Below are positions 20,300 through 25,167 of a stretch of 64,000 bases of DNA, in pieces. A model generated the notes under the pieces. That model worked only from the letters and a program-made list of their open reading frames with translations, was not told where the DNA came from and made no database searches. How positions within the stretch are numbered: the first letter of the stretch is position 1; every line of letters starts with the position of its first letter. The position numbers and the translations under genes were made by a program. This stretch comes from Planctomycetia bacterium (GTDB lineage: Bacteria > Planctomycetota > Phycisphaerae > Phycisphaerales > SM1A02): positions 1 to 64,000 of the forward strand of contig SYGP01000037.1 of the NCBI GenBank assembly GCA_005799495.1, read 5' to 3'.

Positions 20300-21008
20300 C
20301 TCGCCGCCGGAAGTTGAACAGCCGCGGCTGCTCGCTCGGCACCACGAGGAAGGTGGCTGTCCGCAGGCAGTACGCGGTGAGCGCACCGCCGTACACACAG
20401 CCCGTGTCGATTGCCACCACGGAAGGGCGCCCCGATTCCCGCATCAGCATGAGTGGTTGAGTCAGAGGTCGATGACCAACGATCAGGAGACCATCCGTAC
20501 CGTCGTAATCCCACCACCAGTCCGCTTCCCCGTCCGCAGCCTTGATCGTCATGCGAACGCGCGGCGGCGTTCGATCAAAGCCGCGCGAAGGATCGATGCC
20601 GGCGTGGACTGCCGTCCACTGGTAGGGCAATCGCCCGCGTACGGAGTTGTTCCGCATCGCCTCGCGCAGCAGGGACTGCGCCTCATCGAGCAGGTCTGCA
20701 TCCGCAAGCACATCGACCATCTCGCCGAGTCGCGGCGGCAGATCGCGAGTGTCGGCGTCAGGACCTGCACGTCGGATGGCAGCGAGAGCACGCGGCTCGT
20801 GGTTGCCGCAGACAAGATCGATGCGCCAACCAGCGCGTCGGCGCGCAACGATTTCTTCGACGACCAGGTCTGGTCGCGGTCCCTTGGTGAGCAGATCGCC
20901 AAGCAAGACGATGCGTGGTGTTTCATCACGGCGCGCGAGGCGACGAAACATCGCTCGCAGCTCCACACCGCATCCATGCACATCTCCCACGACAACCGTG
21001 TCGCGCAT
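20229..21008 (-). CDS. Metallophosphoesterase (ApaH/PrpE/PPP-type)
   Basis: A 259-residue calcineurin-like phosphoesterase with the family metal motifs in order: GDVHGCG (residues about 8-14), LLGDLLTKGP and CGNHEPRAL, then VGHRPLTQP and a late DTGCVYGGALTAY, where the usual His/Asp ligand pair of PPP enzymes sits. Members of this group act as protein phosphatases or hydrolyse diadenosine tetraphosphate; the substrate cannot be told. ATG 21008 is 6 bases after TATGGT. The tail overlaps nadE by 71 bases, an unusually long antisense overlap. Confidence 0.9.
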   Translation of the reverse strand: MRDTVVVGDVHGCGVELRAMFRRLARRDETPRIVLLGDLLTKGPRPDLVVEEIVARRRAGWRIDLVCGNHEPRALAAIRRAGPDADTRDLPPRLGEMVDVLADADLLDEAQSLLREAMRNNSVRGRLPYQWTAVHAGIDPSRGFDRTPPRVRMTIKAADGEADWWWDYDGTDGLLIVGHRPLTQPLMLMRESGRPSVVAIDTGCVYGGALTAYCLRTATFLVVPSEQPRLFNFRRRVSARPESSAWRVASAARGRTLVR

Positions 21009-21013
21009 CGCTC

Positions 21014-21022
21014 TACCATACT
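21014..21022. promoter_or_regulatory. Bidirectional -10 region between metallophosphoesterase and mutL
   Basis: Only 20 bp separate the two start codons. Minus-strand TATGGT (21015-21020) ends 6 bases before the phosphoesterase ATG; plus-strand CATACT (21017-21022) ends 6 bases before the mutL ATG. The two -10 boxes overlap on opposite strands. Confidence 0.55.
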
Positions 21023-21028
21023 CCCGAT

Positions 21029-22837
21029 ATGCCCATCCGCATACTTCCTCCCGACATTGTTCAGCAGATTGCGGCTGGGGAAGTCGTGGAACGACCCGCG
21101 AGCGTCGTGAAGGAGCTGATGGAGAACGCGCTCGACGCTGGGGCGACACATGTGACGGTTCGAATCCGCGGTGGGGGTCGGGAGTCCATCGAGGTTGTCG
21201 ACGATGGTTGCGGCATCGACCCGTGCGAACTGCCGCTTGCGATTGCAGCCCATGCCACGAGCAAGATCGCTGCCACCAGCGACTTGGATGCCCTCCGTAC
21301 TTTCGGATTTCGAGGCGAGGCGCTCGCAGCCATCGCGGGGGTTTCCCATGTGCGCATCCGCTCGAGGCGTCTGGGCAGCGCCGATGCGGCGATGCTCGAG
21401 AGCCGCTTTGGGCAGGTGGAACCCGTGCGTCCCGCGGCGGGCGCGGCTGGCACGGCGATCGAAGTTCTTGGATTGTTCGGCAATGTGCCTGCCCGCCGGA
21501 AGTTCCTCAAGAGTGATCCTGCCGAGGCGGCACGCGTGACGGAAGTGGTGACGAACGCAGCGCTTGCGCATCCTTCGGTGGGATTCACACTCGAAAGTTC
21601 GGGGCGCGAGGTGTTCGCGCTCGAGCCCATGGCCGATCTCTTCGCGCGAGCGCTCGCGGTCTTCCCCGATGTCCTCGGCTCGGAGCCACTGCCCATCGCG
21701 AGTGACGCGGAGTTCGATGGAGTCTGCGCACGGGTGGTCGGGCTTGCGTGTCGCCCCGAGCGACTTCGGTCGGTCAGTCGAACGCAGCGCATCTTTGTGA
21801 ACGGTCGTCCGATCACCGATCGTTCGATGCAGCACGCGGTGCGGGAGGCGTACCGAGGACGCGCTGCACCCAACCTGCAGCCCACATTCGTGCTGTTCAT
21901 CGAGATCGATCCTCACGGGGTCGACGTGAATGTCCATCCCCAGAAGACAGAAGTGCGCTGGCGACATGCTGCGCAGATGCACCGCATGATCCACCACGCC
22001 GTCGTGGATGCACTTGAGGCGCATGTGGGTACCGCGCAGGGAGGCACGCTGCTCGGCGCGTCTCGACCCCATCTCGATCGTGCGCCGATGCAATCCGCCG
22101 ACATGCCATGGGCTTCACGGGCTCTGGGTGAACCAGTCTTCACAGCCGCCATTCGTGAGCGTGGGAGCACAGGATCACCCCGCAGTGCCTCGGGCACGAT
22201 GGAGTCGCCGCCTCCCGAGCACCTCCTGCAGGCGCCCGCACCGTGCGTGGATGTGCTGCTTGTGGACGACACATGGATCGTGCACGCGAGCGAAGATGGC
22301 ATCGTCATCACGGATCAGCATGCGCTGCATGAGCGGGTGATGTTTGCCGATCTTCGACGGCGCATCGCCGCAGGCACGATGATGCAGCAGCGATTCCTTG
22401 TTCCTTTGCCCGTGGCCGTACCGCCCGAGGCCATTGCCACACTTGAGTCACTCACGCCGCTCTTGCAGCGGCTCGGCATCGAGGCGAGTCCGGCGGGCCC
22501 GCGTTCGATCGCGATCCATGCGTTCCCCGTGTTTCTGCTCGAGCGCCGTGTCGATGCAGTTGCGTTCATGGCGCACATGCTTGCGGACGAGGCGCTCGCA
22601 CGCGGCGTGGAGGCGGGACAGATCCATCACGCGCAGGAGGCGGCGCTCGCGGATGTGCTTGACATGATGGCATGCAAGGCGGCGGTCAAGGCAGGTGACC
22701 GCCTGAGCCGCGAGGAGGCGGCGCGGTTGATTGCGGATGGCGCGATCACGGATCGTGGGACGCACTGTCCGCATGGGCGACCAACATCCGTTTGCATTCC
22801 GCTTGGAGACATCGAGCGGCGATTCGGCCGCCGCTGA
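21029..22837 (+). CDS. mutL: DNA mismatch repair protein MutL
   Basis: GHKL ATPase that links MutS to strand removal. The N-terminal domain is canonical: QIAAGEVVERPASVVKEL, NALDAGAT and the GFRGEAL lid. A Pro/Ser-rich linker spans about residues 370-410. In the C-terminal domain, DQHALHER, ACKAA, CPHGRP and the final F-x-R (RRFGRR) of endonuclease-type MutLs are present, but the second Glu of DQHA-x2-E-x4-E is Ala (ERVMFA). Nicking activity is therefore uncertain. No mutS lies in the window. Confidence 0.95.
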   Translation: MPIRILPPDIVQQIAAGEVVERPASVVKELMENALDAGATHVTVRIRGGGRESIEVVDDGCGIDPCELPLAIAAHATSKIAATSDLDALRTFGFRGEALAAIAGVSHVRIRSRRLGSADAAMLESRFGQVEPVRPAAGAAGTAIEVLGLFGNVPARRKFLKSDPAEAARVTEVVTNAALAHPSVGFTLESSGREVFALEPMADLFARALAVFPDVLGSEPLPIASDAEFDGVCARVVGLACRPERLRSVSRTQRIFVNGRPITDRSMQHAVREAYRGRAAPNLQPTFVLFIEIDPHGVDVNVHPQKTEVRWRHAAQMHRMIHHAVVDALEAHVGTAQGGTLLGASRPHLDRAPMQSADMPWASRALGEPVFTAAIRERGSTGSPRSASGTMESPPPEHLLQAPAPCVDVLLVDDTWIVHASEDGIVITDQHALHERVMFADLRRRIAAGTMMQQRFLVPLPVAVPPEAIATLESLTPLLQRLGIEASPAGPRSIAIHAFPVFLLERRVDAVAFMAHMLADEALARGVEAGQIHHAQEAALADVLDMMACKAAVKAGDRLSREEAARLIADGAITDRGTHCPHGRPTSVCIPLGDIERRFGRR

Positions 22838-22886: not shown

Positions 22887-23141
22887 TCACAGGCCGTGCT
22901 GCGGCGAGCAGGGGGGAAGGGGCGAGGTGAACACAACCGTTCGCGACCCAAGCATCTGCTGGATGTACGGCTCACAGAGTCCGCACCGTTCTGCGCATCC
23001 AAACGCGTTGCGGAGTTGCGCCACGTCGGCAGCGCCGTGGGTGTCGGCGAAGACGCGCATCTGCGCGAAGGTCACTTGGACGCAAACACAGCGGTCGATT
23101 CGCAGCGTGTGCGATGGGGAAACAGTGCTGCAGTCGTTCAT
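22887..23141 (-). CDS. Small BFD-like [2Fe-2S]-binding protein
   Basis: About 84 residues with CVCVQVTFAQMRVF and, after about 25 residues, CAERCGLCEPYIQQML. The four-cysteine pattern C-x-C...C-x-x-C plus the CEPY turn resembles the bacterioferritin-associated ferredoxin (BFD-like) fold that holds a [2Fe-2S] cluster. Third and last gene of the riboswitch-led operon: its ATG lies 4 bases after the pseudopilin stop (an earlier ATG at 23159 overlaps that gene). A redox role is likely; its link to cobalamin is inferred from position only. Confidence 0.75.
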   Translation of the reverse strand: MNDCSTVSPSHTLRIDRCVCVQVTFAQMRVFADTHGAADVAQLRNAFGCAERCGLCEPYIQQMLGSRTVVFTSPLPPCSPQHGL

Positions 23142-23145
23142 CGGT

Positions 23146-23937
23146 TCATCTCGGGTCATAGGCAGCGTTGTTGTGGCTCAGAAATCCGTTGCGCGGCCAA
23201 CCCAGAGGCTGTGCGAGCAGCGATGCGCCCGATGCGGCGAGCGCGTGCTGGCCTTCGCACGGCGCGCACACGGATGAGGTGTGCCCATCGAGCCAGGCAA
23301 CATTGGTGCAGCCCTGATGGCGAAATGCCTGCGCACCCGCATAGACCACCCCAAGATCCATCTCCACCAGTGCCTCGGGCGCTCGCATGAACTTGTTCGT
23401 TCCACCGCTCCAGCCGCCGTCGCCAAAGAGAGCGGTCTGCGATGGTCGAAGATGTGCGTTCGCGGGTATGCCAAGGCGGGCACTGCGCCACCCGCTTCGG
23501 AGGACTCCATCGTCGCCCACGGATGGATACGCGCCCTCGGCTCCGATGTAGGAAGTGTTGTAGTTGAAGCCCGTGCACGGAGCATCGTCCGTCGCAGTGG
23601 GCAGTGCGCAGCATGGACACTGCCGCATGGCATAGGGAGTGTCGGTGAACAGACTCAGTGGTCCAGGATGGAGTGCACCCGCACCATGAGCGAAGTCCCA
23701 GGCAGTGGTACGAACGCCGGACGCGGTCTGCTCGTGAAGGATTGCGGCAGGAAAGGTGCCGCGGTAGATGGTGGAGTAGGCAATGGCTGCGCCGGCGAAC
23801 TGACGCAAGCGAACTGCGCACTCCACGCCTCGTCCGCTTTCACGAACTCCGCCGACCACGGGAACGAGGAGGGATGCAAGAAGCACCAGTGTTCCAATGG
23901 TCACAAGCGATTCCACGAGTGTGAAGGCGCGACGCAT
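23146..23937 (-). CDS. Prepilin-type protein with DG motif (planctomycete pseudopilin)
   Basis: A 263-residue protein starting MRRAFTLVESLVTIGTLV, the type IV prepilin cleavage and methylation signal with F+1 and E+5 followed by a hydrophobic helix. The body ends with NVAWLDGHTSSV, the His-x9-Asp-Gly-type signature of the large planctomycete pseudopilin families (DUF1559-like). These are thought to be handled by a type II secretion-like or pilus-like machine. The ATG overlaps the stop of the upstream dockerin gene (TGATG), so its translation is coupled to a B12-controlled message. Confidence 0.85.
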   Translation of the reverse strand: MRRAFTLVESLVTIGTLVLLASLLVPVVGGVRESGRGVECAVRLRQFAGAAIAYSTIYRGTFPAAILHEQTASGVRTTAWDFAHGAGALHPGPLSLFTDTPYAMRQCPCCALPTATDDAPCTGFNYNTSYIGAEGAYPSVGDDGVLRSGWRSARLGIPANAHLRPSQTALFGDGGWSGGTNKFMRAPEALVEMDLGVVYAGAQAFRHQGCTNVAWLDGHTSSVCAPCEGQHALAASGASLLAQPLGWPRNGFLSHNNAAYDPR

Positions 23938-24869
23938 CACGTGGAACCCCATGCCGCGAGCAACAGCGACAGATCGCTGCCGCCGACGATGCCGTCACCG
24001 TTCAGGTCTGCCGACGGCATGCTGCTGCCAAAGGAAGACAGCAGGATCGACAGATCGCTGCCGCCGACGATCCCATCCGCGTTCAAGTCGGCAGACCGCG
24101 CGCGCGGCAACGCGCGAGCAACAGCATCGATCTCCACATTGGGATGAAAGCCGCTCGGCACCACGATGCGCACGGCCACAGCGCTCGCGAGCCCGACGCT
24201 TGCGAGATCAATGCCTGTTCCGCCTGCACTGCCCGCGTACACCTCCACCAATTGCTCGTAGGACATCCCTTGGAGATCCGCCAACGTGAGCAATGGATCG
24301 ATGGGAAGATGGGGATCCGATCGAACCTGGCCGGCGGTCGGCGAGTAGGGCCCCACATCGGTGAACCCCATGGTGGGGAAGAGTCCATCCGCGACGACGC
24401 CGGGCACCGTGATCCACTGCACTCCGTCTGAACTGACTTGCACGCTTCCGCCGTCTGCCGCGAGTCCCGCGCACACACCAGTCGGCCACTCACCGTCGGT
24501 GAAGAACGAGTTGCCAAAGACAATGAAGTCGATTCCGAAGGGATTGTTGGCGTCATCCAAGATGGGCGGTTGGAACGCCAGCGTGAGGCTTCCACCCGCA
24601 CCAATCGAGACAATCTCGGATGTGCCGAACGGGGGCACGAATGGCGTGACGGCTCCCGGAGAAATGCCCTCGCCAGTGAACGCCTCCGGAGCGCCGAGTG
24701 CGGCAGCTGGATTGGTGAAACCGTTCGCGGGGTTCGTTCCAGGAACATAGGAAACGACGGTGGAAGCGAAGTCGTCCGATCGAGCGCGCGAAGCACTCGT
24801 GAGAACGCAGACAAAAGCCAATGCTTGAAAGCACGCCATCGCTGCGCGGTCCTGCGCAAAGTTGAACAT
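23937..24869 (-). CDS. Secreted dockerin-repeat surface protein under cobalamin riboswitch control
   Basis: A 310-residue exported protein. The N-terminus MFNFAQDRAAMACFQALAF... holds a signal peptide (cleavage near SRARS); an alternative start at 24839 (MACFQALAF) gives a shorter one. The domain begins VVSYVPGTNPANGFTNPAAALG, and then carries DFIVFGNSFF and VSSDGVQWITV, an all-beta pattern seen in uncharacterised cell-surface proteins. Two dockerin-like repeats close the protein (ADLNADGIVGGSDLS, ADLNGDGIVGGSDLS, LLLAAWG). First gene after the riboswitch, so probably made when B12 is scarce; a role in B12 capture is inferred, not shown. Confidence 0.8.
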   Translation of the reverse strand: MFNFAQDRAAMACFQALAFVCVLTSASRARSDDFASTVVSYVPGTNPANGFTNPAAALGAPEAFTGEGISPGAVTPFVPPFGTSEIVSIGAGGSLTLAFQPPILDDANNPFGIDFIVFGNSFFTDGEWPTGVCAGLAADGGSVQVSSDGVQWITVPGVVADGLFPTMGFTDVGPYSPTAGQVRSDPHLPIDPLLTLADLQGMSYEQLVEVYAGSAGGTGIDLASVGLASAVAVRIVVPSGFHPNVEIDAVARALPRARSADLNADGIVGGSDLSILLSSFGSSMPSADLNGDGIVGGSDLSLLLAAWGST

Positions 24870-24934
24870 GGGGATTGTGAAACGCCTGGCCGAGCACCGT
24901 GACCCCTGAACAGAACGCGAGGGGGCGGCACAAC

Positions 24935-25115
24935 ACTGCAGGCAGGTCTTCCGACTTCGGGCACTCGAGCCTGCCTTCCCGGATTCCGCACATGCGGCTC
25001 CAGTGGCTTCTCTGGCTCGGGCATCAGACCTCATCGGTCTCACCCGTTACGGCGGCGCGTCCGCGGCGGATTTTCACCGCCTTCCCTCGCATGCACGAAT
25101 CGGGCCAGCCGACGC
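24935..25115 (-). promoter_or_regulatory. Cobalamin (B12) riboswitch
   Basis: Read on the minus strand the region contains the conserved aptamer blocks in order: GAGGGAAGGCGGTGAAAATC with the following CCGCCGC, the GCCACTG box, a second GGGAAGG, and the closing GAAGTCGGAAGACCTGCC. This is the cobalamin (AdoCbl-type) layout. The aptamer ends about 65 bases before the ATG at 24869; between them CCCCT and AGGGG can pair and may form part of the expression platform. A TACTCT -10 candidate lies at 25162-25167. Outer limits are approximate. Confidence 0.92.
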
Positions 25116-25161
25116 ATGCATACGCCTCGGCTCACGAGTGCCGAGGATCAAGCACGGCGAA

Positions 25162-25167
25162 AGAGTA
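25162..25167 (-). promoter_or_regulatory. Candidate -10 box (TACTCT) for the riboswitch transcript
   Basis: TACTCT on the minus strand lies about 50 bases upstream of the first conserved aptamer block. No good -35 is seen. Confidence 0.35.

Follow-up and report, generated by a model that had tools for sequence, protein, structure and literature searches.

A conserved cobalamin riboswitch operon of Phycisphaerales encodes a short BtuH-superfamily protein and its own pseudopilin, and probably serves vitamin B12 capture at the cell surface

Which function is served by a cobalamin riboswitch when the genes behind it encode a secreted protein, a pseudopilin and a small [2Fe-2S] protein? This question is raised by a locus of the window (the whole stretch of 64,000 nucleotides that was analysed), which contains the following features.

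24924..25124, minus strand: class I cobalamin riboswitch aptamer (RF00174), covariance-model match
23937..24869, minus strand: P1, secreted protein of the BtuH superfamily; core at residues 32-256, dockerin-like repeats at residues 260-307
23146..23937, minus strand: P2, operon-specific pseudopilin; prepilin motif RRAFTLVES, H-X9-DG, DUF1559-like
22887..23141, minus strand: P3, BFD-like [2Fe-2S] protein; C-x-C-x31-C-x2-C
20915..22837, plus strand: mutL-like gene (long open reading frame, assigned from the frame and its spacing); convergent, marks the operon end and lies outside the system

The initial annotation had proposed a cobalamin aptamer on the minus strand, followed by three coupled genes ending at mutL. 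The aptamer was recovered with a covariance model: RF00174 of Rfam matches 24924-25124 (minus strand) over its full length with 65.3 bits (E 7.2e-14), and this score above the gathering score of 31.5 places the element in the family. Its B12 box reads GAAGCCACTG. The gene coordinates also hold, as the overlap of P1 and P2 is exactly the TGATG at 23939-23935 and the gap between P2 and P3 is exactly 4 bases. P1 starts with the ATG at 24869 or at 24839 and ends at 23937. The two dockerin-like repeats of P1, the prepilin start and DG motif of P2 and the four BFD cysteines of P3 were all found again. The mutL neighbour recurs as a cluster (c2) in 26 loci. Cobalamin riboswitches in general switch genes off when B12 is plentiful, and the operon is most likely turned off by its riboswitch under the same circumstances. 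For the expression platform, the leader was scanned for terminators and for folding, which gave no clear terminator and no unusually stable fold.

P1 and the riboswitch were both searched in 201 genomes of the order Phycisphaerales. The riboswitch is present in 188 of them, mostly as one copy per genome. Among the strong riboswitches listed in the genomes with P1 (listed matches down to E 5.7e-13), 74 of 79 precede P1 on its own strand at a distance of 49-349 nt (median 176 nt), and the aptamer precedes P1 in 17 of the 20 closest loci. Gene content was scored in 61 P1 loci: P2 follows P1 in all of them, over several families, but P3 was found in 30 and is missing in 31. The three-gene order after cobalamin aptamers is thus kept across the order, with P3 as its variable member, and the operon is conserved through Phycisphaerales. 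P2 is the most constant partner of P1. In one family (f2), a PQQ-type beta-propeller is inserted in the operon between P1 and P2.

Twenty further regions around other riboswitches of the order were read, of which 19 were scored for a pseudopilin, and 15 of these 19 B12-riboswitch loci contain one. Some display the order riboswitch, YVTN-like propeller, BtuH-like protein, pseudopilin and BFD. A propeller, a BtuH-like protein and a pseudopilin are combined in L191, L194, L195 and L203, some of them with BFD, and related gene orders occur in L192, L193, L196, L202 and L204. In L197, L201 and L205 a secreted protein of the "WGYRWDG" type precedes the pseudopilin. The gene order of the window's operon is repeated throughout Phycisphaerales, so the arrangement is far beyond chance. 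A riboswitch that serves P1 only, with unrelated genes behind it, would agree with the variability of P3; it is contradicted by this conservation, by the presence of P2 behind P1 at every locus scored, by the TGATG coupling and by the pseudopilins behind other binders, and we consider it hardly credible. Two other arrangements were observed in the order. At L190 (G064:C161), a cobalamin riboswitch precedes a ribonucleotide reductase operon, which is the classical arrangement of a B12-independent isoenzyme. At L091 (G085:C89), one open frame that ends at P1 combines a P1 domain with a beta-propeller of the PEP-CTERM kind, which recalls the BtuG-BtuH fusion of BtuG1 in B. theta.

No Pfam family covers the core of P1, neither in P1 nor in 31 homologs with E up to 1, and a P1 profile searched against the PDB sequences gave no real match, so a comparison of folds was needed. 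An AF2 model of the core built from 58 homologs reached a pLDDT of 96.5, against 32 for the single sequence. With Foldseek, only one PDB structure matched this model below 1e-3, namely 8blw_B (BtuG1 with its BtuH domain; E 2.1e-6). VIA-align ranked 7biz (BtuH2 with B12) first, with Z 13.2 and 2.5 A over 139 residues, followed by 8blw (Z 12.9), PAPP-A (9.9) and then lectin modules. The relationship was also detected between sequences, with those of 7biz and 8blw themselves as the reference: hhalign of the P1 profile with the two BtuH sequences gave E 8.4e-6. Longer planctomycete proteins are intermediates that match BtuH2 at 3e-24 and P1 at 7e-16; because these E-values refer to small sets, bit scores are the safer measure, and a single profile of the intermediates gives 104 bits for P1, 115 for 8blw and 86 for 7biz. 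The fold matches, the hhalign comparison and the intermediates linking both sides make the homology between P1 and the C-terminal domain of BtuH secure, and P1 can be placed in the BtuH superfamily. The C-terminal part of P1 (residues 260-307) displays a GC-type pair of dockerin-like repeats, with 18.7 bits in Pfam and 27.0 bits for NF041540 in NCBIfam, both just under the cut-off. As a separate observation, the P1 core (24114-24773 of the window, minus strand) matches weakly the lipoprotein family LIC_13355 of Leptospira (best E 0.001); this match is repeated in 9 of 31 P1 homologs, and the family is perhaps another distant relative of BtuH.

Eight residues of BtuH2 touch B12 (PMC8941943). 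With the BtuH2 numbering checked on the sequence, Asn399 is the sole contact kept in the P1 proteins (51 of 51) and the other seven are not kept; in P1, the segments with His476, Tyr510, Trp511 and Trp577 are either absent or reduced in length. Judged by its B12-contact residues, P1 falls outside BtuH proper and, because these contacts are lost, it was classed as a short homologue within the superfamily. Since only one of the eight contacts is kept, B12 binding by the short form is a putative property, and P1 may bind B12 in another way or not at all. The BtuH-type fold could have been re-used in a B12-regulated adhesin or sugar binder that attaches the cells to B12 producers when B12 is low. 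The loss of most contacts agrees with such a role, as do the galactose-binding-like jelly roll, which is common to the CBM32 lectins, and the dockerin tail, since such tails are common on polysaccharide-acting proteins. However, the two best PDB matches of P1 are B12 binders that score well over the lectins, and the longer orthologues, which occupy the same operon slot beside BtuG-like propellers, are the only ones to keep Gln333 (in PAPGQF), along with Asn399. We therefore regard the adhesin as quite unlikely. The cell-surface B12 capture put forward in the initial annotation is now well supported by the BtuH homology, the conserved gene order and the propeller of the sister families, and within it the binding of B12 by P1 stays presumptive. 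That interpretation stands in part; the relation to BtuH, the second B12-regulated secreted protein described below and the conservation were absent from it.

The host is represented by a planctomycete assembly of 2.36 Mb that is 97.8% complete, and the relatives that bear a name are MAGs of Phycisphaerales and of other planctomycetes, with lakes as a frequent source. This genome encodes MetH (TIGR02082, 1214 bits), and also a MeaB-like GTPase to which a mutase B12 domain is fused. The tetrapyrrole methylase family (TP_methylase) has zero members in the host genome, whereas the same search was positive in 14 of 14 control genomes; the host thus makes no corrin ring by known routes. Even an RsmI-like member of this family is lacking in the host genome, and to our knowledge such a member occurs nearly everywhere. 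The only TonB plug protein of the host is of the TIGR01782 type, and no BtuB-type receptor is recognisable in the genome at its 97.8% completeness (16.7 bits with the TonB-B12 model, for a cut-off of 600). From MetH and the mutase, the lack of the methylase and the type of the plug, it follows that the host needs B12, cannot make corrin and has no recognisable BtuB. One FecCD permease is encoded, together with an ATPase and a protein that may be the binding component, and the models cannot separate B12 transport from siderophore transport. In 55 of the 81 genomes of the family a TonB plug search gave no match, though divergent plugs could escape this search.

P2 combines the prepilin start RRAFTLVES with the H-X9-DG motif HQGCTNVAWLDG, which place it among the type IV pilin-like H-X9-DG pseudopilins (DUF1559 group); an orthologue passes PF07963 (25.8 bits), and the P2 of the window is itself under the curated cut-offs. 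Pilins at the loci were counted with profiles. A profile built from the B12-operon pilins of other families gives 128.9 bits for the P2 of the window and at most 77 bits for the other prepilins that it recovers from the same genome, which assigns P2 to a B12-operon subfamily. In the pilin tree, which has long branches, the pilins of the B12 operons group together (3 label changes, compared with 9.6 when shuffled, 0 of 500 shuffles as low); a single origin is a possibility beyond this clustering and is not proven.

The display of P1 on pseudopilus-like structures, already suggested in the initial annotation, is a putative role that would be consistent with a pseudopilin so firmly tied to the operon. 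It is attractive to give P2 a part in the passage of B12 across the outer membrane, because P2 is the most constant partner of P1 and most of these genomes are devoid of TonB receptors. In its strongest form, a B12-regulated pseudopilus would replace BtuB: P2 fibres would carry P1-cobalamin and, by retraction or shuttling, bring it across the outer membrane to a transporter of the BtuCDF type. This strongest form, which assumes that cobalamin (about 1.36 kDa) is too large for general porins, we consider unlikely. Alternatively, P2 could serve only the export of P1, as a minor pseudopilin of type II secretion outside uptake, with P1 still capturing cobamides. The standard prepilin start would fit, as would the six T2SSE/PilB/PilT-type ATPases and about 15 other prepilins of the window's genome, and at L186, L187 and L189 the riboswitch drives a secreted protein without a pilin. 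On the other hand, P2 belongs to an operon-specific subfamily and is not a general export pilin. Moreover, L200 (G031:C1:3218403-3221000 and on) contains a pair of cobalamin riboswitches at a distance of 2 kb: one is followed by a pseudopilin without an intervening secreted binder, the other by a BtuB-like TonB receptor with ExbB. Export alone is possible for P2 but doubtful.

The cysteine motif C-x-C-x31-C-x2-C of P3 is present in 33 of 34 homologs. P3 scores 22.1 bits against PF04324 (cut-off 26), which two orthologues pass with 27.0 and 30.7 bits. P3 had also been proposed as a redox partner for cobalt reduction; nothing beyond the [2Fe-2S] motif speaks for this, and about half of the loci lack P3. 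A redox role of P3 is thus conjectural. At L085 and L205:2868-3902 (reverse strand), in two distant genomes, a thioredoxin reductase gene stands after the pilin, at the place where other loci have the BFD-like protein, and this may be chance.

A second secreted protein lies behind a B12 riboswitch elsewhere in the host genome (G000).

Host contig C43:36078-36243, plus strand: AdoCbl-type riboswitch, from covariance models
Host contig C43:36260-36808, plus strand: unannotated secreted protein of 183 amino acids with a C-terminal sorting-type tail, directly after the riboswitch

The riboswitch matches RF00174 weakly (24.8 bits) and the AdoCbl model with 48.4 bits, for a gathering score of 50. 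The same pair of riboswitch and protein is seen at L184:3261-3812 and L212. Orthologues of the 183-residue protein were detected in 48 of the 81 genomes of the family; a cobalamin-class aptamer lies right upstream in 17 of the best 20 orthologues. In other families, proteins that may be distantly related to it are encoded in one operon with P1 or P2. A PDB profile search with this second secreted family gave no meaningful match.

In B. theta, BtuH is a surface B12 trap (PMC8941943, PMC10404256) and a BtuH domain is part of BtuG1 as a fusion (PMC10404256). P1 resembles BtuH of Bacteroides thetaiotaomicron (BT1488, BT1956; PDB 7biz; H domain of BtuG1, 8blw) in fold, in detectable homology and in riboswitch control, and like BtuH it would be exported for B12 scavenging. 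Contrary to BtuH, P1 is shorter, contains no PKD domains, ends in a dockerin-like or PEP-CTERM tail and is not a lipoprotein, and the planctomycete operon contains a pseudopilin instead of BtuB or BtuCDF. BtuH is found with BtuG in B. theta, and several planctomycete loci likewise encode a beta-propeller beside a BtuH-like protein. Sister families thus have a propeller in the same riboswitch operon, in contrast to the operon of the window; the PDB profile of this operon propeller matches the surface-layer propeller 1l0q, and its likeness to BtuG (a YncE-type beta-propeller) is one of fold type and operon place. The proteins DUF4465/BtuJ (PDB 9FCT, 9I2L, 9HMU) are also secreted jelly-roll B12 binders, and one tested member comes from the Phycisphaerae, from Mucisphaera calidilacus (PMC13398666). 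This identity is not supported for P1, as neither P1 nor 31 homologs match DUF4465 in Pfam with E up to 1; the BtuJ structures (augmented jelly roll) are not among the 50 structural matches of P1 listed, an absence that carries no weight by itself.

Taken as a whole, we consider it probable that the locus belongs to a riboswitch-repressed regulon for surface B12 capture, a planctomycete counterpart of BtuG/BtuH of Bacteroides with a dedicated pseudopilin. When B12 is scarce, the repression by the riboswitch would be lifted and the operon turned on. P1, an exported jelly-roll protein of the BtuH type that is probably held at the surface via its dockerin-like tail, would capture cobamides. The dedicated P2 most likely helps to display the captured vitamin or to deliver it across the outer membrane. 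P3 would be made alongside and may be a redox helper. A BtuCDF-like ABC transporter encoded elsewhere in the genome would complete the import for MetH and the methylmalonyl-CoA mutase-type enzyme.

The B12 riboswitch, the fold of BtuH and the capture of B12 at the surface have been described before. In the open literature, to which the search was confined, no paper turned up that links a cobalamin riboswitch to a pilin in such a sense, or BtuH to planctomycetes. As far as this literature shows, it is new that the system occurs throughout Phycisphaerales, that BtuH has a short form ending in a dockerin or PEP-CTERM tail, that a pseudopilin is a fixed member of the operon and that a second family of secreted proteins exists.

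The analysis suggests a way of scavenging B12 that relies on surface proteins, and possibly on pili, where the BtuB pore would normally be used. It would extend BtuH-type surface capture from gut Bacteroidetes to an order of mostly aquatic planctomycetes, where the genome of the window cannot make corrins and most of the family has no recognisable TonB receptor. Two types of B12 riboswitch drive secreted protein families that are without annotation. Planctomycetes bind dextran on pili-like fibres, and the route of its uptake is uncharacterised (Boedeker et al. 2017, PMC5394234). Such fibre-linked capture of nutrients at the surface is also proposed here, with a vitamin and not a macromolecule as the cargo, and P2 would be the putative link between the two. 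If P2 fibres did carry the vitamin inwards, this would represent a pilus-driven route of vitamin uptake and a substrate-specific role for a member of the large planctomycete group of H-X9-DG pseudopilins. A concrete gene set with a built-in B12 switch gives a handle on the unexplained fibre-linked uptake of planctomycetes.
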